This document shows positions 50 through 40,408 of a stretch of DNA of 40,435 nucleotides, piece by piece. The stretch covers positions 1 through 40,435 of the IMG/VR virus record IMGVR_UViG_3300036851_000074; one strand, written 5' to 3'. The stretch comes from a virus. The position numbers and the translations under genes are program-made. Positions within the stretch are counted from its first letter, which is position 1. Each line of letters starts with the position of its first letter. The notes beneath the pieces were generated by a model, which worked only from the letters and a program-made list of their open reading frames with translations, was not told the origin of the DNA and did not search any database.

Positions 50-331
50 GTGACCAGAAAGTTGAAGGTCGTCACCGAGCAGGACCAGGTCCAGGCCCCG
101 AAAACGCTCAAGGATGCCGTTGACGTCTCCGAGCGGGCGCTTCTGGTGACGATCCGGGCGAAGATCGCGGCCGAGATCGATGGCGGGGTTCCTCCGCACA
201 CGCTCGCGCCGCTGACCCGGCAACTTCGGGACATCGACAAGGAGATCCGCGCTCTGGATCTGCGTGCCAAGGAGGAGGCTGACGAGGATGCCGCCTCCGC
301 CGATGAAGAGTGGGACGAGACGGCTCTCTGA
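50..331 (+). CDS. Terminase small subunit (putative)
   Basis: GTG start at 50 after a GAGGG ribosome site; 93 residues. It is a short, highly charged, mostly helical protein with an acidic C-terminus, placed directly before and overlapping the large terminase. Small terminases bind the packaging site and load the motor. Residues about 23-78 predict as helices (SERALLVTIRAKIAAEI, then RQLRDIDKEIRALDL), suiting an oligomerising core. No classical HTH motif is obvious, so the call rests mainly on position, size and composition. Confidence 0.6.
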   Translation: MTRKLKVVTEQDQVQAPKTLKDAVDVSERALLVTIRAKIAAEIDGGVPPHTLAPLTRQLRDIDKEIRALDLRAKEEADEDAASADEEWDETAL

Positions 332-1742
332 GATCGCTCGGCACGTCGTGGCACCCAAGGGCATCACTGCGACAGGGTGGCCGGCGGTCCGGGACAAATG
401 CTCTCAGCTGGGGATCTCGTTCCGTGGGTGGCAGCACGCCACTGGCCGGGTGATTCTGGCGAAGCGTCCTGATGGTAAGTACGCCGCGACCGTGGGTGGG
501 ACGGGGCTGTCAATCCCACGCCAGGTCGGTAAGACGTTCCTGGTGGGTGCGATCGTGTTCGCGCTCTGCCTGATGCTGCCAAACCTGACGGTGATCTGGA
601 CTGCTCATCGGCTGCGGACGGCCGAAGAGACGTTCAAGAAGATGCAGTCGTTCGCGCGCCGCAAGAAGATCGCGCCGCATATCGTGAAGATCGTCCTCGG
701 TTCCGGCGAGGAGGAGATCCGGTTCCGGAACGGTTCGCGGATCATGTTCGGCGCACGCGAGCGGGGCTTCGGCCGCGGCTTCGATGAAGTCGACGTCCTC
801 ATCTTCGATGAGGCGCAGATCCTCACCGACAACGCTCTCGACGACATGATCCCCGCGACGAACCAGTCGCGGCAGCCGACGGGCGCGCTGCTGCTCTTCA
901 TGGGCACGCCGCCGAAGCCGACGGATCCGGGGGAGGTGTTCTTTCGGATGCGAACCGAGGCGTTGACTGGCGATGATGATGACACCGGCTGGATCGAGTT
1001 CGGCGGCGATCCGGAGTTCAGGCCAACGCCAGCTCCCCTGCCGCTGACCGCGGCGGACTGGGCTCAGGTGGCCAAGGCGAACCCGTCCTACCCGGACGAC
1101 ACGCCCCGTGAGGCGATCCTGCGGATGCGGAAGAAGCTCGGCCCAGAGTCGTTCCTGCGGGAGGGTCTAGGGATCTGGGATGACCGCTCCGGCGTCGACG
1201 TCCTCCCAGGATGGAAGGGCGGGTTCCGTGACGAGGAGCCCCCACCTGTGCGAGCGATCGGACTGGGAGTCTCGCTCGACCTGGAGTGGGCATCCATAGG
1301 CGCCGCTGCACCTTGGCCAGACGACCCGGACGTGGTGAATGTCGGGGCGGTTGAACGTCGACGCGGGACTACCTGGCTGATCACCGAAGCCAAGCGCATC
1401 CAGGATGAGCATGGGTGCGCGGTCGTGATCGACGAGAAATGCCCGGACGCGTCACTCCCAGGGGCGCTCGAGGACGCGGGCGTCTCGGTGACAGTCGCAA
1501 AGTTGGGCGACTGCATTGAGGCGTGCTCGGAGTTGGTGAACCGCGTCAAAGACATGCGCGTCACCCATCAGCAGACCACTGAGCTCGATGATGCGATTCG
1601 CGCCGCAGCGTGGCGCATGGTGGGTGATCGAAAACTCTGGGGCCGCAAACAATCGACCGACGACATCTCGATGCTTGAGGCCGTGACGCTCGCCTCATGG
1701 AAGGCGTCCGCTGTGTACGACCCATTGCAATCCGTCTGGTGA
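288..1742 (+). CDS. Terminase large subunit
   Basis: ATP-driven packaging motor and nuclease. From ATG 288 (484 aa) a Walker A variant PRQVGKT lies near residues 77-83, Walker B VLIFDEAQ near 170-177 and the coupling motif LFMGTPP near 203-209. The C-terminal half carries acidic residues expected of the RNase H-like nuclease (GVSLDLEWAS, VVIDEKCPDA, DDISMLEA). ATG 288 has a GGAGGAGG ribosome site nine bases upstream; a GTG at 264 would add eight residues without a good site. It overlaps the small subunit by 44 bases, implying coupled translation. Confidence 0.93.
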   Translation: MPPPPMKSGTRRLSEIARHVVAPKGITATGWPAVRDKCSQLGISFRGWQHATGRVILAKRPDGKYAATVGGTGLSIPRQVGKTFLVGAIVFALCLMLPNLTVIWTAHRLRTAEETFKKMQSFARRKKIAPHIVKIVLGSGEEEIRFRNGSRIMFGARERGFGRGFDEVDVLIFDEAQILTDNALDDMIPATNQSRQPTGALLLFMGTPPKPTDPGEVFFRMRTEALTGDDDDTGWIEFGGDPEFRPTPAPLPLTAADWAQVAKANPSYPDDTPREAILRMRKKLGPESFLREGLGIWDDRSGVDVLPGWKGGFRDEEPPPVRAIGLGVSLDLEWASIGAAAPWPDDPDVVNVGAVERRRGTTWLITEAKRIQDEHGCAVVIDEKCPDASLPGALEDAGVSVTVAKLGDCIEACSELVNRVKDMRVTHQQTTELDDAIRAAAWRMVGDRKLWGRKQSTDDISMLEAVTLASWKASAVYDPLQSVW

Positions 1743-5459: not shown

Positions 5460-5470
5460 CCTTCTGAATC

Positions 5471-5503
5471 CATGTCCCCACCTTCTAGTAAGGTGGGGAC
5501 ATG
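5471..5503 (+). promoter_or_regulatory. Perfect 14-bp stem-loop covering HNH ribosome site and start
   Basis: The two 14-base arms (catgtccccacctt and aaggtggggacatg) are perfectly complementary around a five-base loop ctagt. The right arm contains the only ribosome site (AAGGTGG) and the ATG of the downstream HNH gene. On a transcript coming from the capsid gene this would fold and hide the start. It lacks a U-tract, so simple rho-independent termination is less likely, though it may protect the capsid mRNA 3' end. Confidence 0.85.
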
Positions 5504-6040
5504 GAGAGGCGAACCTGCAACCGGTGTGGAGAATCGAAGGCGGAACCCGAATGGGCACCGTCACAGTGGCGCAAGGGTGGATGGTGCAGAGCGTGCTACC
5601 GCGAGTGGCATCGCCAGCGCTACATTCCGACCACTGGAGCCACGGACGACGAGCGCCAGTGCGTCGTGTGCGGTCGGATGTACCAACCGAAGAACCGCCG
5701 CCCCAGCACTTACTGTTCGCAGGACTGCAAGACGCGCGAACGCAAAGAGAGCGGCCAGCAACGCGACCAGCACCTGCGCCGAAAGTACGGCATTAACGCC
5801 GTTGATTATGACCGGATCCTTGCCGAGCAAGGCGGCGGATGCGCGCTCTGTGGCGTGAAACCAGAGGACCTCACGCAGGGCCGATACCGGACCTACCTGC
5901 ATGTCGACCACTGCCACGAGACGGGTCGGGTTCGTGGGTTGCTGTGCCCTGAGCACAACCTGCTGCTGGGCCGATTCGGGGATTCCCCGGAGATGTTCCG
6001 AAAGATTCTTAAATACCTGGAGGCCGCTGCCTCCAAGTGA
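5501..6040 (+). CDS. HNH endonuclease, recombination endonuclease VII type
   Basis: 179 residues. The N-terminus has two zinc-binding regions (CNRCGESK with CRAC; CVVCGRMY with YCSQDC), then RRKYGINAVDYDRILAEQ and the endonuclease VII core: CALCG, HVDHCHETGRVRGLLCPEHN and LLGRFGD. This architecture is typical of free-standing phage homing endonucleases. It interrupts the late operon between capsid and tail-tube genes. The start must be ATG 5501 because the first Cys motif begins at residue 6, which places the ribosome site and start in a strong stem. Confidence 0.9.
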   Translation: MERRTCNRCGESKAEPEWAPSQWRKGGWCRACYREWHRQRYIPTTGATDDERQCVVCGRMYQPKNRRPSTYCSQDCKTRERKESGQQRDQHLRRKYGINAVDYDRILAEQGGGCALCGVKPEDLTQGRYRTYLHVDHCHETGRVRGLLCPEHNLLLGRFGDSPEMFRKILKYLEAAASK

Positions 6041-20421: not shown

Positions 20422-20606
20422 AGTACGCAAAAGCTATCTACGGTGCCGGGATTGGCTTCATCGCTCCCGGTGCTGCCGTGCTGGTGACGGAACTGGCCGG
20501 CGACGGCATTCAAGGCTCGGACTGGCTGAAGGCTGGTCTTGTCTGCATCGTGTCCGCTGCTGCTGTCGGTGGTGGTGTTGCGCTCGCTCCGAAGAACGCC
20601 GACTGA
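20418..20606 (+). CDS. Holin (putative, two TM)
   Basis: 62 residues from GTG 20418. Two hydrophobic segments (about 8-26, YGAGIGFIAPGAAVLVTEL; and 38-56, KAGLVCIVSAAAVGGGVAL) with a charged turn (GDGIQGSDW) and a short tail KNAD. This matches small class II-type phage holins that open the membrane and set lysis time. It directly follows the amidase and the small linked gene. Confidence 0.75.
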   Translation: MKYAKAIYGAGIGFIAPGAAVLVTELAGDGIQGSDWLKAGLVCIVSAAAVGGGVALAPKNAD

Positions 20607-20607
20607 C

Positions 20608-20706
20608 ATGCCCCGCTGGGTGTGGGTCGCTGTCGGTCTCGCCGCGGTGTTGCTGATCCTATGGCTGCTGGGGATCCGGTTCGGCCTGTCCGTGAGCGGC
20701 GGCTGA
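20608..20706 (+). CDS. Single-TM lysis peptide
   Basis: 32 residues, ATG one base after the holin stop. MPRW, then a TM helix VWVAVGLAAVLLILWLLGI, and a short tail RFGLSVSGG. Tiny one-span peptides next to holins often act as holin partner or antiholin. Its last codon lies just before the terminator. No ribosome site of its own; translation is probably coupled. Confidence 0.6.
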   Translation: MPRWVWVAVGLAAVLLILWLLGIRFGLSVSGG

Positions 20707-20761
20707 CAAGCGCGGCCTCGTCACCTCATCCCCGTGGGTGGCGAGGTCGCCCCAGATATGG

Positions 20762-20799
20762 CGCAGCCCCCGGTTTCCACGCCGGGGGCTGCGTTTCTT
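20762..20799 (+). terminator. Strong terminator ending the late block
   Basis: Perfect 12-bp arms cgcagcccccgg and ccgggggctgcg around an eight-base loop (tttccacg), followed by a T-rich tail (tttctt). It ends rightward late transcription just after the lysis genes and, read from the other strand, can stop the convergent leftward genes. A second, weaker stem (near 20716-20744) precedes it. Confidence 0.88.
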
Positions 20800-22699: not shown

Positions 22700-22939
22700 G
22701 CCGCTCCACTGCCGCTCCAGATTGTGCAGGTTCCTTTCGGAACCGCCTGCGGAGTGGCGTTCTGAGCGTGAAATCGTGGGATTTGGCTGGGTGCCCCTGC
22801 GATCTGTCACTTTCCTGGCGTGGAAGTAAGAACCGCAGGTCAGGGGCTCTTATGGGTCCAATGTAGCACAAAACGGGTTCATTCGGGAATACCTGAGTCC
22901 GCCTGAGGTGGTTCCTCCTGCCGCTCCACTGCCGCTCCA
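22700..22939. other. Candidate attP with paired arm-type repeats
   Basis: The 20-base sequence gccgctccactgccgctcca occurs at 22700-22719 and again at 22920-22939, both direct. Each copy is itself two direct nine-base repeats (gccgctcca) two bases apart. Two pairs of direct repeats about 200 bases apart flanking an uncoded region beside the integrase gene match the arm-site layout of tyrosine-integrase attP sites. The right pair lies within the integrase 3' end. The core is not identified. Confidence 0.6.
22726..22750. repeat. Inverted repeat inside candidate attP
   Basis: ggttcc and ggaacc pair across tttc, and gcagg and cctgc extend the stem past a small asymmetry. It could be a core-like inverted pair for strand exchange, or an RNA stem between integrase and esterase genes. 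There is no T-tract on either strand. Confidence 0.45.
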
Positions 22940-24027
22940 AGAGCGTCACGCGCCTGGTCGAACCGTGCATCCGTCGGGTGGATGTACCGCTCCGTCGAAC
23001 GCAGCGACTTGTGACCCATCAGGGCACCGATCTGATTCGGTGCGACGTTCTTCTCCGCCAGCCACGACCCGTAGGTGTGGCGCAGGTCGTGCGGTGTCGG
23101 CTGAGGATCCGGCAGTTTCGCCCGCAGCAGTGCCGGCGCCCATACGCTGACGTGCCAGTGCTCGTACCACAACCGGCCACCAGAGTCCGCCGTGAACACC
23201 CATCTCTCGTCGGGAGCAGGGATCACGCGGGACAGTTTGACGACGAGATCGTCCGTCAACGGCACCAATCTCACACCGGAAGGTGTCTTCGGCTTCTTCT
23301 CGTCGCCCTTGCGGGGAAGTACCTTCACGATCTGGATCCTCTTCCGTAGTAGATCGACACGGAATCTCCGCAACCCCGCAGCCTCCTGCCACCTCAGTCC
23401 GCAGTACAACAGCATCTCCACGAACAACCGGTCCCTATCGGCGAACTGCTCGAGCAGCTGCGCTGCCTCTTTCCTGGTGAGTATCCGGTCAACGTGCGGT
23501 TCTGGTGGGGTAGCGACCACGTCGGCGGTCGGGTCGGCGGTCAACAGCTTGTGCTTCGCTGCGGCGCGCAGCATCTGCCCAAGCAACCGGAGCGAGCCGT
23601 TGACCGTCGGCAACCCAACCCCCTTATGTTCCAAATCACTGACCCACGCCTCGACGTCCCACGACTGGATCGCCGCGATCGGCCACGTCCCGAACTTCGG
23701 TTCGATGTGGTTCCGCCACCACCCGTCAGTGCGGCGCTGGGTGGCGATCTCGACCCTGCGGGTCTCCTCCCACTTGTCCCGCCATGCGGCGAGGGTCATC
23801 TTCCCGGCATGCGGATTCACCCACTCGCCGCGACGGATCTTGGCCTCCTCGTCCGCGGCCCACGTCTCCACGACCTTCTTCAGCGGGTCGGACTTGGAGA
23901 ACCGCTCCCCTGAAGGGTGGCGGATCGTGGCCTGCCACATCCCTTTCGGCTTCTCGCTCGCCGGCAACTCTCCCGCGCGTTGCCGGCGCTTCTGCTCAGG
24001 AGTGAGGAGTCTGCGGACGTGCGCCAT
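22879..24027 (-). CDS. Tyrosine integrase
   Basis: 382 residues from ATG 24027 (GAGGGG upstream; GTG 24030 adds one). An N-terminal arm-binding part (MWQATIRHPSGERFSK) and SAM-like core-binding part (MTLAAWRDKW to LLTADPTADV) precede the catalytic domain: Arg in CGLRWQEA (R212), Lys in KTPSGVR, HDLRH (H313, R316), His in MGHKS (H339) and Tyr in STERYIHP (Y348). All catalytic residues are present, so it is likely active. It reads toward attP and follows the repressor gene. Confidence 0.93.
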   Translation of the reverse strand: MAHVRRLLTPEQKRRQRAGELPASEKPKGMWQATIRHPSGERFSKSDPLKKVVETWAADEEAKIRRGEWVNPHAGKMTLAAWRDKWEETRRVEIATQRRTDGWWRNHIEPKFGTWPIAAIQSWDVEAWVSDLEHKGVGLPTVNGSLRLLGQMLRAAAKHKLLTADPTADVVATPPEPHVDRILTRKEAAQLLEQFADRDRLFVEMLLYCGLRWQEAAGLRRFRVDLLRKRIQIVKVLPRKGDEKKPKTPSGVRLVPLTDDLVVKLSRVIPAPDERWVFTADSGGRLWYEHWHVSVWAPALLRAKLPDPQPTPHDLRHTYGSWLAEKNVAPNQIGALMGHKSLRSTERYIHPTDARFDQARDALGAAVERQEEPPQADSGIPE

Positions 24028-24037
24028 CACGCACCCC

Positions 24038-32050: not shown

Positions 32051-32376
32051 TGACTAGCGTCCTTGATCAGCTGCAGACGATCTCCCGCGACCTCGACAAC
32101 GCCATCCGCGACCTGTCCCGCCTCGAGCAGCAGGCCGCCGAAGCCGAGTCCGCGTACCGGGTAGCGAAAGCGCAAGCCTTCCTCACTGCCGAGGGTGCTG
32201 TGCAGACCCGCGAACACACCGCCGTCCTGTCCACCCAGCGGCAGTTGATCGAACGCGACAAGACCGCCGCTCTCGTCCGCGTACAGCGCGAGTACATCCG
32301 CGCCTTGCATGCCCGCATCGACGTGGGCCGAACCATCGTCGCCACCGAACGCACCCTCGCGGGGGTGTCGATATGA
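32050..32376 (+). CDS. Coiled-coil protein
   Basis: 108 residues, TGATG start. One long helix: LDQLQTISRDLDNAIRDLSRLEQQAAEAESAYRVAKAQ, then TAALVRVQREYIRALHARIDVGRTI. Heptad Leu/Ile spacing is clear. Such short coiled-coil proteins often sit before phage methyltransferase or recombination genes. It overlaps the methyltransferase by four bases. Confidence 0.6.
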   Translation: MTSVLDQLQTISRDLDNAIRDLSRLEQQAAEAESAYRVAKAQAFLTAEGAVQTREHTAVLSTQRQLIERDKTAALVRVQREYIRALHARIDVGRTIVATERTLAGVSI

Positions 32377-33989
32377 CGCCCCACTACACCGACGAGTCGG
32401 TGACGCTGTACCACGGCAAGTGCGAGGACATACTGCGTGAGATGCCCGACAACAGCGTTGATGCTGTGGTCACTGATCCGCCGTACGGGCTGGAGTTCAT
32501 GGGCAAGAGTTGGGACCGCCTCGGCGATGTTGGGCAGGCGTCTCACCAGGGATTCGCCGATAAGCCGGGGTTCAAGGGGTTCCGTCTTGCATCGTACTCA
32601 GCATCTGCGAACCTCAAGTGCCAGCGATGCGACCGGTGGAAGTTCGACCACGTCGGGCGGAAGTGCGAATGTGGCCCCGCTGCGGTTTGGCCCAATGTGC
32701 GGGCCGTAGAGGGCCGACGAATGCAGGACTGGCACCAAGCGTGGGCTGCCGAGTGTCTGCGCGTCCTCAAGCCTGGCGGACACCTGCTCGCGTTCGGCGG
32801 TTCCCGCACCTGGCACCGGCTCGCGGCCGCGGTCGAGGACGCTGGGTTCGAGATCCGCGACAGCATCGCGTGGCTGTACGGCTCCGGGTTCCCGAAGTCG
32901 CTCGACGTGTCCAAGGCGATCGACAAGCGCCCAGGCGTCACCCGTCACGCTGAGTTTGCGGCGCACCTCGCCGCCCGTCGGGAAGCAGCTGGGTTGTCCC
33001 GCGCCGACGTGTCCGAGCGAGTCGTCGGCACCCGCACTGATGCGTGCTGGAACTGGGAGCATCACCAATTCCCCGAGGCGAAGTGGTGGCCCGCGCTCCG
33101 CGAACTCCTCGACCTAGACGAAGCGACATGGGGGCCTGTCATCGCGGAAGCCGAGCGACAGAAGGTGGGCGAGCGAGCGACAGGAATCGGCACCGGCAAG
33201 GGGGCCGTACCGATCATGGGCGATGGGAACCGCGACATCACCACGAGCGCCACCGAAGCCGCCCAGCAGTGGCAGGGATGGGGCACCGCGCTAAAGCCCG
33301 CGTTCGAGCCAATCGTCGTCGCCCGCAAACCCCTCGCCGGCACAGTCGCCGCGAACGTGCTGGAACACGGCACCGGGGCACTCAACATCGACGGCTGTCG
33401 CGTGGCGCATGGCCGGGATGTCGACCTGGCCCGCGAGCAGCGTCAGCGAAGCGACACGGCAGGTTTCGGCGGAGGCGGGATGAAGGCGGGGCATGTCCAG
33501 CCGTTATACGCCGCCGCTGGCCGCTGGCCGACGAACGTCGTACTAGATGAGTCGCAGGCCGCCGACCTCGACAAACAGAGCAACGGCGCGGGCGCTGCAC
33601 GGCAGGCCATTAGACGAGCTGATAAAAGCGGCATGTGGGGGCTTCCAGGCGACGGACAACGGTATGGCGACGAGGGTGGCGCGTCCCGGTTCTTCCCAAC
33701 GTTCCGATACGAAGCCAAAGCACCGACCGCCGAACGGCCACGCGACGGCGAGACCGCACACCCCACCGTGAAGCCGCTCGACCTGATGCGGTGGCTCGTA
33801 CGGCTCGTCACCCCACCAGGCGGCACAGTCCTCGAGCCGTTCGCCGGCAGCGGCACCACCGCCGAAGCGTGCGTTATTGAGGGGTTCAAGTGCATCGCGA
33901 TCGAGCGGGAAGCCGACTACCTGCCCCTGATCGTTGCTCGCCTCACCAAGCCCATCCAGATCGGGCTGGACTTCGGGGAGGCGGGATGA
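32373..33989 (+). CDS. DNA methyltransferase (N4-C/N6-A) with internal HTH
   Basis: 538 residues. Motif IV TDPPYG (34-39) comes first and motif I EPFAGSGTT (488-496) near the end, the beta-type order. Cys pairs follow motif IV (CQRCDRW, CECG). Residues about 190-255 hold an HTH-like insert (FAAHLAARREAAGLSRADVSERVVG, then WNWEHHQFP) that may recognise DNA. TVKPLDLMRWLVRLV precedes motif I. It may protect phage DNA from restriction. Overlaps both neighbours by four bases. Confidence 0.9.
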   Translation: MTPHYTDESVTLYHGKCEDILREMPDNSVDAVVTDPPYGLEFMGKSWDRLGDVGQASHQGFADKPGFKGFRLASYSASANLKCQRCDRWKFDHVGRKCECGPAAVWPNVRAVEGRRMQDWHQAWAAECLRVLKPGGHLLAFGGSRTWHRLAAAVEDAGFEIRDSIAWLYGSGFPKSLDVSKAIDKRPGVTRHAEFAAHLAARREAAGLSRADVSERVVGTRTDACWNWEHHQFPEAKWWPALRELLDLDEATWGPVIAEAERQKVGERATGIGTGKGAVPIMGDGNRDITTSATEAAQQWQGWGTALKPAFEPIVVARKPLAGTVAANVLEHGTGALNIDGCRVAHGRDVDLAREQRQRSDTAGFGGGGMKAGHVQPLYAAAGRWPTNVVLDESQAADLDKQSNGAGAARQAIRRADKSGMWGLPGDGQRYGDEGGASRFFPTFRYEAKAPTAERPRDGETAHPTVKPLDLMRWLVRLVTPPGGTVLEPFAGSGTTAEACVIEGFKCIAIEREADYLPLIVARLTKPIQIGLDFGEAG

Positions 33990-34363
33990 GCCCCAAGGCC
34001 ACCAGGGCGGTGACGGAAGCCGCCAGAAGGATCGTGCGGCAACGCGACGGACACCGCTGCCAGATGTGCGGCCGGTCGATCGTGGACTTCCCCAGCAGCA
34101 TCCACCACCGCATCAACCGCGGCAGCGGAGGAACCGCGAAACTCGAACGCCCCTCACTGCTGATCCGCATGTGCGGGACCGGCACCACTTTCTGTCATGG
34201 CTGGGTTACGAACGAGCCACGCCAGGCAGGGAAGTGGGGCTGGCTGCTGCCCAAGAACAACCCCGACATCAACCCTGAGCAGGAGCGCATCCTGCTGTAC
34301 GACGGCTGGCACATCCTCACCGACGACGGTTCCCGTCACCCTCTCATCGAGGGGGCCGCATGA
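33986..34363 (+). CDS. HNH endonuclease between methyltransferases
   Basis: 125 residues from ATG 33986. CQMCGRSI is the first Cys pair, SIHHRINRGSGG carries the HNH His pair, and CGTGTTFCHGWV supplies the second metal site; HPLIEGAA ends the chain. It differs from the two HNH_3-type genes. It overlaps the methyltransferase and the next gene by four bases. It may work with the methyltransferases or be another homing nuclease. Confidence 0.85.
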   Translation: MSPKATRAVTEAARRIVRQRDGHRCQMCGRSIVDFPSSIHHRINRGSGGTAKLERPSLLIRMCGTGTTFCHGWVTNEPRQAGKWGWLLPKNNPDINPEQERILLYDGWHILTDDGSRHPLIEGAA

Positions 34364-34851
34364 GGAGCGGTGGGCTGTTCGCCGGGTATGGCGGCCTCGA
34401 CATGGCGGTGGCCGGCGTCGGAGGGGTTTCGGCCGCCACTGTCGGAGGTTTTGCTTCCGACACCGATGCCCTCCTACAGCAGCAGGAATGCGGAGGAGTG
34501 GAGAGCGCAGAGGCCCGCGGGGAACGGCGCGGAGAGGGCAGTGGTGGGCGATCTGCGGATCGTGGTCGAGGAGTTGTTGCCTGGGGTCAGTACGAACCCG
34601 CAATCCGACGATGGGAACACATCCTCGGACGAGTAGCACCCGCGCCTACGGAACTCAGCTCGAAGGGTACGCAACGCCTCTCGCCGCGGTTCGTCGAGTT
34701 CTTGATGGGCCTCCCTGCAGGCCATGTCACCGCCGTCCCTGGCGTGAACCGCAACGCCCAGTTGAAGGCCCTAGGCAACGGCGTAGTGCCGCAGCAGGCC
34801 ATCGTCGCGTTGCGCCACATGTACGCCGCGGAACGCCGGGAGGTCGCGTGA
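34360..34851 (+). pseudogene. Cytosine-C5 methyltransferase lacking its catalytic core
   Basis: 163 residues, fully open. The N-terminus is motif I (GGLFAGYGGLDMAV) and the C-terminus is the usual target-side end: AWGQYEPAIRRWEHILGR, RLSPRFVEFLMGLPAGHVT, LKALGNGVVPQQA. The catalytic Pro-Cys motif IV, ENV and QRR motifs are absent. Between them the frame is Gly/Glu/Arg-rich, while the +1 frame carries family-like pieces (LLPTPMPS, VVEELLPG), so a deletion and two frame changes are inferred. An active enzyme is unlikely; a shortened DNA-binding protein is possible. Confidence 0.75.
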
Positions 34852-36614
34852 TCAACCCCAACGCCGGCCGCGCCTCCGTACTGCGTGCCAACTCCCGATC
34901 CCTTCCACTCGCAGACGACTCGGTGGATCTCGTGGTTACCTCACCGCCGTACTTCGCGCTTCGGAGCTACACCGACAACGGCGTTCACTACACCGGCCAG
35001 ATCGGCGACGAACCGACCCCGGCCGCGTTCGTGGATTCGCTGCTCGAGGTCACCCGTGAGTGTGTGCGGGTGCTGAAACCGTCCGGGTCGCTGTGGGTCA
35101 ACCTCGGCGACAAATACGCGGGTAGCCGGATGGACGGCTCATCGGGGCATGGAACATGGGCACACAAGCAAACCCAGAAGACGAACCGCATGGCGCTCAT
35201 GCAAGCGTCTACAGGCTATGACTCCGCTGCATCGTCGGGCATCGTACCTACCAAGTCGCTGATCGGCATCCCGTGGCGGTACGCGATCCGCTGCATCGAC
35301 GAGCTCGGCCTGATCCTGCGCGCCGAGATCATCTGGTCGAAGCCGAACGGGCTACCCGAGTCCGTCACCGACCGGGTACGCCGCAGCCACGAGCAGTGGT
35401 TCCACTTCACGCTGAACCCGCGGTACTACAGCGCAGTCGACGAGATCCGCGAACCAAACTCGGCACATTGGGAGCGGTACAGCGGCCGGAAGGGCGGCGT
35501 AAAGAGCGACCCGAGTCGGAATGATGCGGTCACCCTGAACATGGCCGAAGCGAATCCGTTGGGGAAGCTGCCGGGGTCGGTGTGGGAGATCCCGACCGAA
35601 CCTGGCGATTCCATCGTTCGCTCAGTTCTGTCGGCCGTCGCGGCTGACGCACTCACCATTGATGAAGGAGAGCGGATCCTATGGGCAGCACACGAGAGTC
35701 ATTCATGGCTCACGTCCTCGTCACCGATGCCTGCTGGGAATGGCAAGGGTGGCGCGACAACCGCGGATACGGCAAGGCCACAGCAGTCGACAGTCGCGGA
35801 AAGGACTGGGCACACCGAGTCGCTTACGCCCTCTTCGTCGGCCCCATCCCAGACGGACTCACTCTCGATCATCTCTGCCGGAACACCAGCTGCGTCCGAC
35901 CCGACCACCTCGAACCCGTCACGCGCGCCGAGAACATCCGACGCGCGTGGCCAGAACGGACCTACTGCCCCGCAGGACACAGCTTGGCCGATGCATACGC
36001 CGACAAGACCCGCCACGGCAAACCCCGGAAGAAGTGCCGGACCTGCCAGCTCGAACGAGGCAGACGCAGGCGACAGCGTGTGGGTGGTGCCGACCGAACC
36101 ACTCAAGGTGCCGGCTGAACTGGGTATCGACCACTTCGCGGCATTTCCTACGGAGTTCCCGCGTCGCATCATCCAAGGCTGGTCACCGGCTGGCGTGTGT
36201 ACGGCGTGCGGCGAAGGTAGGCGACCCGTCGCAACGAAGGCCGCGCACGGCGAGAAATTGAAGCGCAATCTGCGACACATCCCTGGATACGCGGATCCAG
36301 GGGGAGAAGGTCAGCGCGACGTTCGCTACGAGATCACTGGTTACGCCTGCGCGTGTCCCGAACCGACCGCACCCACCACGCCCGCTGTCGTGCTCGACCC
36401 GTTCGGCGGGACTGGTACGACCGCGCTCGTCGCGAAGGCGCTCGGCAGGCACGGCATCAGCGTCGACATGTCCGCGGACTACTGCCGGCTCGCTGACTGG
36501 CGCACCAATGACCCCGACCAGCTCGCGAAGGCGATGCGCGTCGACAAGCCGATCAAGCAGGCCGAGGGCCAACTGTCGATGCTCGACTTGCTCGAAGACG
36601 GTGGTGCGGCATGA
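34848..36614 (+). CDS. DNA methyltransferase (N4/N6) interrupted in frame by an HNH gene
   Basis: 588 residues as read. Motif IV TSPPYF (31-36) and motif I DPFGGTGTT (517-525) are both kept. SVWEIPTEP (about 244-252) is repeated as SVWVVPTEP (about 410-418); the 166 residues between them are mostly Ser/Thr/Pro-rich and correspond to the HNH gene read in another frame. Without them the sequence joins to a normal PTEPLKVPAELGIDHFAAFP. Activity with the insert is doubtful. GTGA start overlaps the previous gene. Confidence 0.85.
   Translation: MINPNAGRASVLRANSRSLPLADDSVDLVVTSPPYFALRSYTDNGVHYTGQIGDEPTPAAFVDSLLEVTRECVRVLKPSGSLWVNLGDKYAGSRMDGSSGHGTWAHKQTQKTNRMALMQASTGYDSAASSGIVPTKSLIGIPWRYAIRCIDELGLILRAEIIWSKPNGLPESVTDRVRRSHEQWFHFTLNPRYYSAVDEIREPNSAHWERYSGRKGGVKSDPSRNDAVTLNMAEANPLGKLPGSVWEIPTEPGDSIVRSVLSAVAADALTIDEGERILWAAHESHSWLTSSSPMPAGNGKGGATTADTARPQQSTVAERTGHTESLTPSSSAPSQTDSLSIISAGTPAASDPTTSNPSRAPRTSDARGQNGPTAPQDTAWPMHTPTRPATANPGRSAGPASSNEADAGDSVWVVPTEPLKVPAELGIDHFAAFPTEFPRRIIQGWSPAGVCTACGEGRRPVATKAAHGEKLKRNLRHIPGYADPGGEGQRDVRYEITGYACACPEPTAPTTPAVVLDPFGGTGTTALVAKALGRHGISVDMSADYCRLADWRTNDPDQLAKAMRVDKPIKQAEGQLSMLDLLEDGGAA
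35580..36100 (+). mobile_element. HNH-bearing insertion flanked by 23-bp near-repeats
   Basis: Bases 35580-35602 and 36078-36100 match at 20 of 23 positions (common parts gtgtggg and ccgaccgaacc). The offset is 498 bases, a multiple of three, so the host frame survives. Between them lie 78 bases with a ribosome site and the HNH gene. Repeat plus nuclease suggests homing-type insertion with host sequence carried along or duplicated. Confidence 0.7.
35681..36118 (+). CDS. HNH homing endonuclease nested in the methyltransferase
   Basis: 145 residues from ATG 35681 with AAGGAG about 11 bases upstream; ATG 35705 is an alternative. CWEWQGWRDNRGYGKA, then AHRVAYALFVG, LTLDHLCRNTSCVRPDHLEPVTRAENIRRA form the HNH core, and YCPAGHSL with KKCRTC the zinc module. 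It parallels the gene at 30099 throughout. The last residues (about 13) are encoded by host methyltransferase sequence past the right repeat. It is in the +2 frame relative to its host gene. Confidence 0.85.
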   Translation: MGSTRESFMAHVLVTDACWEWQGWRDNRGYGKATAVDSRGKDWAHRVAYALFVGPIPDGLTLDHLCRNTSCVRPDHLEPVTRAENIRRAWPERTYCPAGHSLADAYADKTRHGKPRKKCRTCQLERGRRRRQRVGGADRTTQGAG

Positions 36615-38208: not shown

Positions 38209-38423
38209 GCGAGGCGAGTCGACCATCAGGCAGCGCCTATGGGACAGGAGCACCCTCGTACCAAAGCACGGCCCTCCAGAGGGCGGCACTTGAGGGACGC
38301 CTCAAGGTCGCGATCTCCATCAGGGATCAACGTCGGGCGATGGGTGACGCGAAGCGGGCTGACCGCTGGGCCGCGATCTGCGATGAACTGCTGGATCGAC
38401 TGCTGGAGGTGCGTGGCCTGTGA
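38205..38423 (+). CDS. Small hypothetical protein
   Basis: 72 residues. After a Ser/Gly-rich start the rest is helical (ALQRAALEGRLKVAISIRDQRRAMGDAKRADRWAAICDELLDRLLEV). ATGA start and GTGA end. Function unknown. Confidence 0.6.
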   Translation: MSEASRPSGSAYGTGAPSYQSTALQRAALEGRLKVAISIRDQRRAMGDAKRADRWAAICDELLDRLLEVRGL

Positions 38424-39193
38424 ACACGCCATGTAGCGTCGAATGGTGCGACCGACCTGTAGTCGAGGGCCACGTCTGCGTCAGATGCTCTGACAGGCTC
38501 CAGGTTGCCCTAGGGGACGTCACCGCACTCTGGGCCGAGTTGGACACCGTCCTCACCCGCCAGGCCCGCTACAGCGAAGCTGAGGGGCGCGGAGGCTCAG
38601 AGAAGGCGCTCCCGTTCAACGCCAACGCCTCCGAGATCGGCTGGGTACTCAGGAACACCCTCACGACGTGGTGCCGCCTCATCGCTGAAGAACGGGGCAG
38701 CGTACTACCCACCGCCGACAATCCGCCCGCGGTTGCTGGCTGGTTGCTCCACCATGTCGAATGGCTGAGGCATCACAAGGCCGGCGCGGAGGCGGTCGAG
38801 GAGATCACCTCAGCCGTCAATGCAGTTCGCAAAGCCGTGGACCGGCCAGCTGAACGGATCTACGCAGGCCCCTGCGCCGATTGCGGTGGAGACATGTACG
38901 GCAAGCCCGACGCCGCCTCGGTGGAGTGCCGACCCTGCGGCCTCAGTTACGACGTGGCAGAGATGCGGGACTGGATGAGAGCCCAGGTGTACGGGCGCCT
39001 CGTCACCGCACGAGAGGGCGTTGTGCTGCTGTCCAGGTTCGGGCTGCCGGTGTCGCAGAAGACCGTGGAGAAGTGGCACCTGCGCAAGCGGGTCACCGAT
39101 CACGGGCACGACACGGCAGGTAAGCGGCTCTACCTGTTCGATGACCTGGTGGCACTGGCTGCCGCGAGCACACCAACCGAGAGGGCATCATGA
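38420..39193 (+). CDS. Zinc-ribbon / HTH DNA-binding protein
   Basis: 257 residues from GTG 38420. Residues 5-23 have CSVEWCDRPVVEGHVCVRC; a helical middle follows; residues about 153-172 hold CADCGGDMYGKPDAASVECRPCG, a zinc ribbon; the C-terminus is MerR-like (LVTAREGVVLLSRFGLPVSQKTVEKWHLRKRVTDHG, GKRLYLFDDLVAL). Similar proteins end early operons in actinophages. Likely a transcription regulator. Confidence 0.75.
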   Translation: MNTPCSVEWCDRPVVEGHVCVRCSDRLQVALGDVTALWAELDTVLTRQARYSEAEGRGGSEKALPFNANASEIGWVLRNTLTTWCRLIAEERGSVLPTADNPPAVAGWLLHHVEWLRHHKAGAEAVEEITSAVNAVRKAVDRPAERIYAGPCADCGGDMYGKPDAASVECRPCGLSYDVAEMRDWMRAQVYGRLVTAREGVVLLSRFGLPVSQKTVEKWHLRKRVTDHGHDTAGKRLYLFDDLVALAAASTPTERAS

Positions 39194-39441
39194 GGTATTC
39201 ACCCCCACCATATGCGGATATAGCGAAGATCGTCAGGGCAAACCCGACTAGATATGCACCCCTAGTGGCCGCTAGGTACGGAGTGGCTGTCAGGACGGCT
39301 CAGCGCTGGGTGAATGAGGGTCGCAAGCGGGGTCTGATTCCACCCAACGAAGGTCACCCGTGTCCGACGTGTGGTGGTACTGGCCTTCGGAAGTACGGAC
39401 CAGGCAGGCAGGGTGGACACGCCGAGAGACCGCTAGCGTGA
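39190..39441 (+). CDS. Small HTH protein with Zn motif
   Basis: 83 residues, ATGA start. An HTH is visible (DIAKIVRANPTRYAPLVAARYGVAVRTAQRWVNEGRKRGLI), then CPTCGGTGLRKYG, half a zinc site, and a basic tail. Last gene of the early operon, just before the non-coding structured region. Confidence 0.7.
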   Translation: MRYSPPPYADIAKIVRANPTRYAPLVAARYGVAVRTAQRWVNEGRKRGLIPPNEGHPCPTCGGTGLRKYGPGRQGGHAERPLA

Positions 39442-39464
39442 CTTGCCACTCTGCGTCTCCTATC

Positions 39465-39485
39465 CTGTTGCCAGACTGGCAGCAG
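39465..39485. repeat. Inverted repeat 1
   Basis: ctgttgccag and ctggcagcag pair over ten positions (one G-U) around a single central base, so in RNA the loop would open to at least three. It starts the structured region. Confidence 0.6.
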
Positions 39486-39512
39486 TGTTGGTAGACGTCA
39501 GTCGCAAATGCT

Positions 39513-39538
39513 GCTCACCATCCCCGTGACCGGTGAGC
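39513..39538. repeat. Inverted repeat 2
   Basis: gctcacc and ggtgagc, seven pairs, with a 12-base loop (atccccgtgacc). No T-tract. Confidence 0.6.
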
Positions 39539-39572
39539 GTTATAGGTCAGGTTTGACTGGTCCTCGTGCGAG

Positions 39573-39594
39573 CATCCGGGTTAATCACCGGATG
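39573..39594. repeat. Inverted repeat 3
   Basis: catccgg and ccggatg, seven pairs, with an eight-base loop (gttaatca). Confidence 0.6.
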
Positions 39595-39626
39595 ACGGCC
39601 TCCAAGCATCGCACTCATCGCAGTCG

Positions 39627-39658
39627 GCAGATCCCCAGCTTGATCGCTGGGGATCTGC
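39627..39658 (+). terminator. Inverted repeat 4, strong stem
   Basis: gcagatccccag and ctggggatctgc, twelve perfect pairs around cttgatcg. It is followed by aatcc rather than T, so on its own it is not a standard terminator. Confidence 0.7.
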
Positions 39659-39662
39659 AATC

Positions 39663-39700
39663 CAGAACCGTCAGTTCACCCCCTGTGACTGACGGTTCTG
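39663..39700 (+). terminator. Inverted repeat 5, strong stem with short T-rich tail
   Basis: cagaaccgtcagt and actgacggttctg, thirteen perfect pairs, 12-base loop, then ttgtgtc. With repeat 4 it makes a tandem terminator-like pair at the end of the early operon. Confidence 0.7.
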
Positions 39701-39783
39701 TTGTGTCACAATCTCGACAAGGGGGAACCGATCAGACACCGCGCGTCGTCCAACCCCCCGACCAATCAGCAACAGGGGGAACA

Positions 39784-40119
39784 ATGGCGATGACAGACAG
39801 GCTCACCGCGAAAGCGCGAGGACGACTCGAAGCACAGGTGGGGCCGAATGAGCAGATCCTGCACTCGGCCACCGTCGGCCCAGTCGGCATGGTGCTCACC
39901 AGCCAGCGACTCATGCTGGCGCCGTACGTCCAGACCACAGCACCAGATCTGAACCTGCCACTGTCCGCCATTCAGGACGTGGCATGGCAGAAGGGCCTAC
40001 TCGGCAGCCAGGGCAAGCTGACGATCCGCACCTCCACCCAGACCCTCGAGTACAAGACCCCGAACAAGCAAGGCGAGCCGGCCGCCATCAAGATCAGGCG
40101 GGCCATCGCCAACCGGTGA
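39784..40119 (+). CDS. PH-like domain protein
   Basis: 111 residues from ATG 39784 with AGGGGGAA upstream. RLEAQVGPNEQILHSATVGPVGMVLTSQRLMLAPY, then LPLSAIQDVAWQKGLLGSQGKLTIRTSTQTLEYKT and AIKIRRAI follow the bacterial PH/GRAM-type pattern (helix, strand with 'vLTsqRl', strands, final helix). Likely a small soluble or membrane-associated protein of unknown role. Its leader lies after the structured region, so it may have its own promoter. Confidence 0.7.
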   Translation: MAMTDRLTAKARGRLEAQVGPNEQILHSATVGPVGMVLTSQRLMLAPYVQTTAPDLNLPLSAIQDVAWQKGLLGSQGKLTIRTSTQTLEYKTPNKQGEPAAIKIRRAIANR

Positions 40120-40138
40120 CACATAGGTGGTGGGAACC

Positions 40139-40408
40139 GTGCCGAAGCCTGGCTCCACCACTGCCCGCGGTTACGGCGGACAGCACAAAGCTATCCGCCG
40201 TGCCATGCAAGCCACTGTCGACGCAGGCCGTGCCATCTGCTCCCTCTGCGCTCAACCCATCACCCCAGGGCAACCCTGGGATGCCGATCACACCGACGAT
40301 CGCACCGGGTATCGCGGGCCAGCGCACCAGCACTGCAACCGCCGAGCAGGCGGCATCAAAGGCCGACGATCAGCGAAATCACGCCGACCACGCCGCTGGA
40401 CCCTCTGA
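40139..40408 (+). CDS. HNH endonuclease, terminase-associated
   Basis: 89 residues from GTG 40139; GTG 40127 lies on the AGGTGG ribosome site. TARGYGGQHKAIRRAM, CSLCAQPITPGQPWDADHTDDRTGYRGPAHQHCNRRAGG contains the paired Cys and DADH metal site of small terminase-linked HNH enzymes, and a basic tail follows. These cooperate with the terminase in cleavage at cos in HK97-like phages. It lies at the right end, next to the terminases on a circular map. Confidence 0.88.
   Translation: MPKPGSTTARGYGGQHKAIRRAMQATVDAGRAICSLCAQPITPGQPWDADHTDDRTGYRGPAHQHCNRRAGGIKGRRSAKSRRPRRWTL

Follow-up and report, generated by a model that had tools for sequence, protein, structure and literature searches.

The right end of this phage genome raises the question of what purpose is served by a non-coding gap of some 340 bases that carries a dense succession of inverted repeats between the last right-arm gene and the final genes before cos. 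The window (the whole stretch of DNA analysed, 40,435 bases, equal to the whole virus record) is the complete genome of a temperate soil actinobacterial phage with cos ends, the closest terminases being those of Nocardioides prophages (62%, contig L042) and Arthrobacter phages (about 49%). Since independent contigs start at the same site ahead of the terminase and resemble the window there in sequence (window, GTCGCCATTTCTATCTATC; L093, GTCGACCTTTTTCTATCTA; L094, GTCGCTTTTTCTATCTACC), and since the right end of at least one of the contigs sharing this start, G001, also lies directly behind an HNH gene, the ends of the window are real. The right arm is read on the + strand and closes with a helix-turn-helix (HTH) gene of the phrog_908 family followed by a small ORF (Table 1). 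Relatives of the former lie at the right end of Gordonia and Rhodococcus phages, where they are annotated as HTH DNA-binding proteins, and its product is a candidate regulator of the junction; a phrog_908 scan of bacterial genomes returned no match. Elsewhere in the window, the family match of the DNA methyltransferase genes (34197-36614 and 32373-33989) is broken up by long unmatched stretches, with positions 138-344 of the phrog_67 profile spread across residues 238-771, a pattern expected from an inserted domain or intein.

An inverted-repeat search of the gap confirmed the presence of all five of the repeats that the initial annotation had placed within 236 bases, and the stem lengths given for them (10, 7, 7, 12 and 13) held with the exception of the fourth, which is a perfect stem of 13 bp and not one of 12. 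The first repeat does exist, but because its spacer is too short for a 10-bp RNA hairpin it is better seen as an operator-like DNA palindrome; the relative L004 retains it, with T and A exchanged on both arms. The T-rich tail ascribed to the last stem is present as TTGTGT, but is too poor for a terminator scan to call. That the gap is non-coding was borne out by the next gene, whose likely start at 39784 is preceded by a Shine-Dalgarno (SD) sequence, and by a GC3 of 0.55 in the upstream open frame vs 0.82 downstream. The predicted fold of the gap has an energy of -151.9 kcal/mol (z -6.6; reverse strand, z -6.7), and none of 100 shuffles folded as well on either strand. Perfect hairpins of at least 7 bp number four, whereas 300 dinucleotide shuffles averaged 0.27 and never exceeded 2; the longest stem is 13 bp, as against 9 bp in the shuffles, and no other 342-nt stretch of the 40-kb genome holds four such hairpins. 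A search of Rfam 15 gave nothing above the gathering threshold for the gap, ARAGORN called no tRNA or tmRNA in the window, and sequence homology with the whole gap yielded no relative among 50,697 annotated phage records. A repressor-type palindrome, TTGTGTCACAA at 39701, was discarded as a single exact copy at chance level. The SD-like sequence behind the cluster forms part of a duplication (39709-39728 and 39763-39782; CAATC..AAGGGGGAAC), and CCCCCC at 39753-39758 could pair with either copy.

Table 1. Coordinates of the features of the window discussed in the text
Feature	Position	Strand	Remarks
Large terminase	264-1742		Followed by portal, capsid, tape measure and lysis genes
Second hp2-type hairpin	20712-20750	+	14-bp stem, bulged U, CAU/GUG, CCCC loop
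hp1-type terminator	20761-20794	+	U-rich tail GUUUCUUG; adjoins second hp2 copy
Integrase	22879-24030	-	
phrog_908 family gene	38420-39193	+	C-terminal HTH, MerR-like; phrog_908 E 2e-54; penultimate in right arm
Last right-arm (early-type) ORF	39190-39441	+	Before the gap
GACACGCCGA box	39416-39425	+	One exact copy in window
Predicted promoter-like element	39438-39466	+	GTGACT-N17-TATCCT; alternative -35 TTGCCA/TTGACA at 39443
Non-coding gap with hairpin cluster	39442-39783		~340 bases; cluster 735 bp from right end
Stem 1	39465-39485		Palindrome around GCCAGACTGGC at predicted start site; 10 nt, 90% complementary, 1-nt spacer
Stem 2	39513-39538	+	7 bp; holds CATCCCCGTGAC (39519-39530), string of hp2 tip
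Stem 3	39573-39594	+	7 bp, 8-nt loop
hp1 (stem 4)	39627-39658	+	13-bp perfect hairpin, CCCCAG/CTGGGG core; terminator-like without U tail
hp2 (stem 5)	39663-39700	+	13-bp perfect stem, bulged U, CAC/GUG, CCCCU loop; conserved tip
SD-like AAGGGGGAAC	39719-39728	+	Duplicate of SD at 39773-39782; no start codon behind first copy
111-aa ORF, weak DUF4429 resemblance	39784-40119	+	Between cluster and HNH; missing in relatives
HNH endonuclease (phrog_1808)	40127-40408	+	Final gene before cos

The gene upstream of the gap led to two relatives, contigs L003 and L004, with which the gap aligns as plain sequence over no more than its first 40-95 bases. Further on, each of them has a terminator-like hairpin followed by a second hairpin immediately before the HNH gene, and this second hairpin has in common with the last stem of the window a tip composed of a bulged U, three CAY/GUG pairs and a CCCC(U) loop. 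When IMG/VR was scanned with the tip pattern GTTCAYCCCC(N)GTGRCTG, 19 contigs were returned, from which a check of the flanking stems brought out L003 and L004 together with L188, L202 and L190, the latter three with full 14-bp stems and with the hp1-hp2 cassette likewise placed before an HNH gene. These five contigs hold four distinct sequences, most of them near-identical in hp2, and the cassette runs in the order TTGACA-like box, hp1, hp2, SD and HNH. In L003, L004, L188/L202 and L190/L205 alike, the first late-side gene is preceded by hp1 and hp2 in tandem. Behind the HNH gene of L003 there is a P-loop kinase-like gene (5486-5890), which recalls HNH/polynucleotide kinase proteins that the Gordonia phages Eyre and Faith5x5 encode at their right ends. 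Stems 2 and 3 are not conserved, no relative of stem 3 having been found; the DUF4429-like protein, used as a search anchor, found no relatives in phages, IMG/VR or plasmids; and the right ends of nine more distant relatives showed compact genes up to HNH and no cluster.

Covariation across relatives had been named beforehand as one of the checks on the cluster, and compensatory changes were found in both hairpins. In a stem-guided alignment anchored on the tip and comprising few sequences (L003, L004, L188, L190 and two window copies), 10 of the 17 pairs of hp2 had changed on both sides, 98.8% of cells were paired, none of 500 shuffles equalled this result and slid controls collapsed; in hp1, four pairs had changed on both sides around a CCCCRG/CYGGGG core. 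These changes provide good but not overwhelming support for a conserved RNA structure, and the earlier suggestion of a structured RNA element is supported by the recurrence of hp1 and hp2 in relatives with such changes, and of the hp2 type at other operon or gene ends. Given that the hp2 hairpins of the relatives are rich in G-U pairs, the form that is kept is that of the + strand RNA, and not of a DNA cruciform or of the opposite strand. Throughout, the tip (bulged U, CAY/GUG, CCCC) is constant while the stems vary.

A covariance model of hp2 constructed without it found a second copy in the window at an E-value of 2e-7 (the E-values of such home-made models being rough owing to a short calibration). 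Its sequence, GCGGCCUCGUCACC-U-CAU-CCCC-GUG-GGUGGCGAGGUCGC, is separated by 5 nt from the stop codon of the preceding ORF (20539-20706), the last late one on the + strand, and the ORFs beyond the adjoining terminator are read on the opposite strand, so that the location is a convergent operon end. A scan with the fixed 15-base tip CCTCATCCCCGTGGG returned 27 contigs, and in one of these, the unrelated L261, an hp2 with a perfect stem of at least 14 bp and of unrelated stem sequence follows the stop codon of a structural-type gene (322 aa) at a distance of 7-9 nt. The placing of these two hairpins identifies hp2 as a + strand RNA structure found where operons or genes end, at their 3' side; hp2 hairpins occur in several contexts, and it is this setting that they share, and not cos, an origin or an SD sequence. 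Contig L158 has a strong hairpin with a CACCCCCGTG tip and no bulge between two late genes, and the tips of L272 (9-bp stem, inside an ORF) and L192 (10-bp stem) are possible chance matches. When applied to 21 isolate phages and to five Nocardioides genomes (reached via terminase matches, and not proven hosts), the model gave background-level matches only, the best of which (E 8e-4) was a hairpin with a different tip. The string CAYCCCC(N)GTGRC occurs just twice in the window, in stem 2 and hp2, vs 0.18 occurrences expected in the whole window. A perfect 16-bp inverted repeat at 5469-5505, 10 nt behind the major head (capsid) gene, is likely to be an attenuating hairpin.

Turning to the front part of the gap, the GACACGCCGA box recurs at the corresponding position in L003, L004 and a distant Nocardioides prophage (L019), and the number of near matches within the window is that expected by chance; beyond L003 and L004, a scan with the upstream-box pattern gave three AT-rich chance matches inside polymerase-type genes (L026-L028), which were set aside. 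The best candidate promoter in the window, L003 and L004 has the form RTGACT-17/18-TAnnnT, the arrangement of the window recurring as GTGACT-18-TAGATT in L003 and ATGACT-17-TATCCT in L004. A TTGACA/TAnnnT scan found no promoter in L188, L190 or the cluster K mycobacteriophage Adephagia, and the match in the window was weak. The cluster K start-associated sequence (SAS), the definition of which allows no more than 2 mismatches to GGGATAGGAGCCC ahead of a start codon (PMC12699233), was considered and rejected, the nearest string (GGATAGGAG at 39457-39465 on the - strand) having 3 mismatches over 13 and facing away from the genes. On the complementary strand, GGATAGGAG is present in the gaps of both the window and L004, and the late-start gap of Adephagia (L246 ~1680; Adephagia ~58,680) has GGGATAGGAGGCC, inside a hairpin loop; these may reflect a common -10-like string, CTCCTATCC.

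Long non-coding gaps occupy the same HTH-to-HNH slot in the Arthrobacter phages BrayBeast, Kumotta and MargaretKali, and in the latter two TTGCAA-17-TAAAGT precedes a textbook terminator complete with T run; promoter-like boxes are also present in the slot in BetterKatz (TTGACA-19-TAGGCT) and DumpsterDude (TTGACA-18-TACGCT). In Adephagia, the late transcription start has been mapped to the equivalent hairpin-rich gap between genes 92 and 93 (PMC11373665). This gap of 432 bp holds a hairpin cluster (z -6.9) with a T-tailed terminator and, as at the right end of the window, small genes (here two), HNH and cos come next. It differs, however, in being without the hp2 tip, and no sequence similarity to the window was found; the Arthrobacter and Adephagia parallels are analogies of position and anatomy.

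The gap is probably, to judge from its sequence and that of its relatives, an operon-junction control region in which the right-arm transcript is ended or protected by hp1-hp2 and a late promoter lies in the front part. We infer termination, a promoter, a leader RNA and control by the phrog_908 protein, along the following lines. The right-arm (early/replication) transcript would arrive from the left and be ended, or have its 3' end protected, by hp1 and hp2, which would act in the + strand RNA as a hairpin-cluster terminator, while positions 39416-39485 would carry the late promoter with its operator-like palindrome. The late transcript would take in the last genes and HNH and, after circularisation, continue across cos into the terminase and structural genes. 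With a promoter upstream and the hairpins downstream, the late RNA polymerase would have to pass the same hairpins, which would yield a short leader transcript and an opportunity for control, as at PR'-tR' of lambda. The early-to-late switch of actinophages is poorly known, and the gap is a compact candidate for such a switch.

The stems had been thought denser than a terminator needs, but their density is compatible with termination, hairpin clusters without U-tracts and less than 15 nt apart being reported as the prevailing type of intrinsic terminator in GC-rich bacteria (PMC8355165). The spacing between hp1 and hp2 is 4 nt, whereas the earlier stems are 27-34 nt apart and fall outside this limit. 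The pair resembles such terminators as tandem GC-rich hairpins at an operon end with no U tract, but departs from them in having a conserved tip common to hairpins with unrelated stems, and in lying ~185 nt behind the stop codon, beyond the promoter-like box. With respect to the canonical intrinsic terminator, hp1 and hp2 each provide a GC-rich hairpin of 13 bp, but a U-tract follows neither (AATCC after hp1, TTGTGT after hp2), no terminator scan called either, and only their partner at 20761-20794 possesses one. Other observations that count against the junction reading are the small number of distinct relatives and the weak promoter match; in addition, the cluster is missing from many other phages of the group, and in L003 and L188 hp2 lies directly before the HNH start codon, a position fitting a leader element.

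It is possible, and may be entertained tentatively, that the gap is an attenuated late leader, in which a constitutive promoter would give short transcripts ending at hp1/hp2, until passage of the polymerase into HNH, cos and the late genes was permitted by a regulator, perhaps the phrog_908 protein. The window, L003 and L004 share the order regulator, promoter-like box, hairpins/terminator, HNH, cos and terminase, which is also seen in Kumotta, MargaretKali and BrayBeast, there with canonical terminators, and a late start is placed in the equivalent gap of Adephagia (PMC11373665); the second hp2 copy, however, stands at an operon end without any leader function, and the window alone has a DUF4429-like gene between leader and HNH. 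The relevant precedent is lambda, in which Q acts on PR'-tR' with its 6S RNA and the regulator gene, promoter, terminated leader and late genes follow in that order. The likeness of order is an analogy only, and differs in that no Q homologue is shown here and hp2 is also found at a plain operon end. A stable phage small RNA is rather unlikely. The strong + strand fold near the right end would suit it, and right-end RNAs are known from cluster A phages (PMC5712189) and the Rhodococcus phage WC1 (PMC10986025), that of L5, D29 and StarStuff being an abundant RNA of ~500 nt, toxic to M. smegmatis (PMC5712189), which likewise comes from a structured non-coding stretch near an actinophage right end. 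However, transcription of the L5 RNA begins at Pleft, ahead of the early genes, and proceeds leftward into the right arm, a layout the reverse of that in the window, and the RNA has no similarity to the gap; the phage-record and Rfam searches were blank, and conservation does not extend to stems 2 and 3.

The tandem arrangement of two hairpins within about 74 nt, with a promoter-like box a short way upstream in L188, also calls to mind the put RNAs of HK022, which comprise two stem-loops in ~70 nt (PMC9378689) and act as antiterminators on RNA polymerase; such a role is very improbable, as it would make no sense for the second copy, where an operon ends and a terminator and convergent genes come next, and there is no Rfam match. 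Least credible of all is a replication origin or a DNA-packaging element next to cos, both of which had been proposed in the initial annotation. Dense palindromes 735 bp from the right end would favour it, but the G-U pairs of the relatives' hp2 favour RNA, direct repeats are two-copy only with no iterons, and the second hp2 lies at a convergent operon end some 20 kb away, at 20.7 kb. Furthermore, two genes separate the cluster from cos, and the stems are missing near cos from related phages with comparable cos ends.

The tip of hp2 requires separate consideration, as plain termination has no need for one tip to be shared by two junctions of the same genome and by unrelated stems in other phages. 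This conserved tip is new, and is absent from Rfam. By analogy with the bulged hairpin that serves as a protein-binding RNA operator in MS2, it might be such an operator, or it might pair with the SD sequence of the next gene, in either case controlling translation; an invariant tip on variable stems would fit both, but the proposal is decidedly improbable. Pairing of the loop CCCCCUGU (39679-39686) with ACAGGGGG (39772-39779) would amount to 8 bp in the window, and a 7-bp complementarity is apparent by inspection in L188 and L190; in L003 and L004, however, it is just 4-5 bp, SD sequences are G-rich in any event, and the second copy in the window precedes a convergent gene with no SD available. 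As a plain terminator needs no fixed tip, and SD pairing is weak in L003 and L004 and impossible at 20.7 kb, contact with a protein or with the polymerase is the idea that would be left to account for its constancy. A doubtful extension of this idea is that hp2 represents a new family of actinobacterial-phage RNA motifs, with a constant tip (bulged U, CAY/GUG, C4 loop) and changing stems, that is located at the 3' ends of operons and of highly expressed genes and read by a protein of phage or host, or by the polymerase complex, in deciding between ending and passing; if true, one tip would control several junctions of the genome.

The right-end slot of the Arthrobacter phages also contains tRNA-like elements in BrayBeast (L209, ~1250-1308), Kumotta (L210, ~1148-1226), MargaretKali (L211, ~991-1063) and Gorpy (L218, ~297-375), none of the four being called by ARAGORN or Rfam. 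They consist of an acceptor-like stem, a T-arm (GGTTCGA) and an irregular middle, with ACCA encoded at the end in MargaretKali. In contig L095, the slot holds a called tRNA-Trp.
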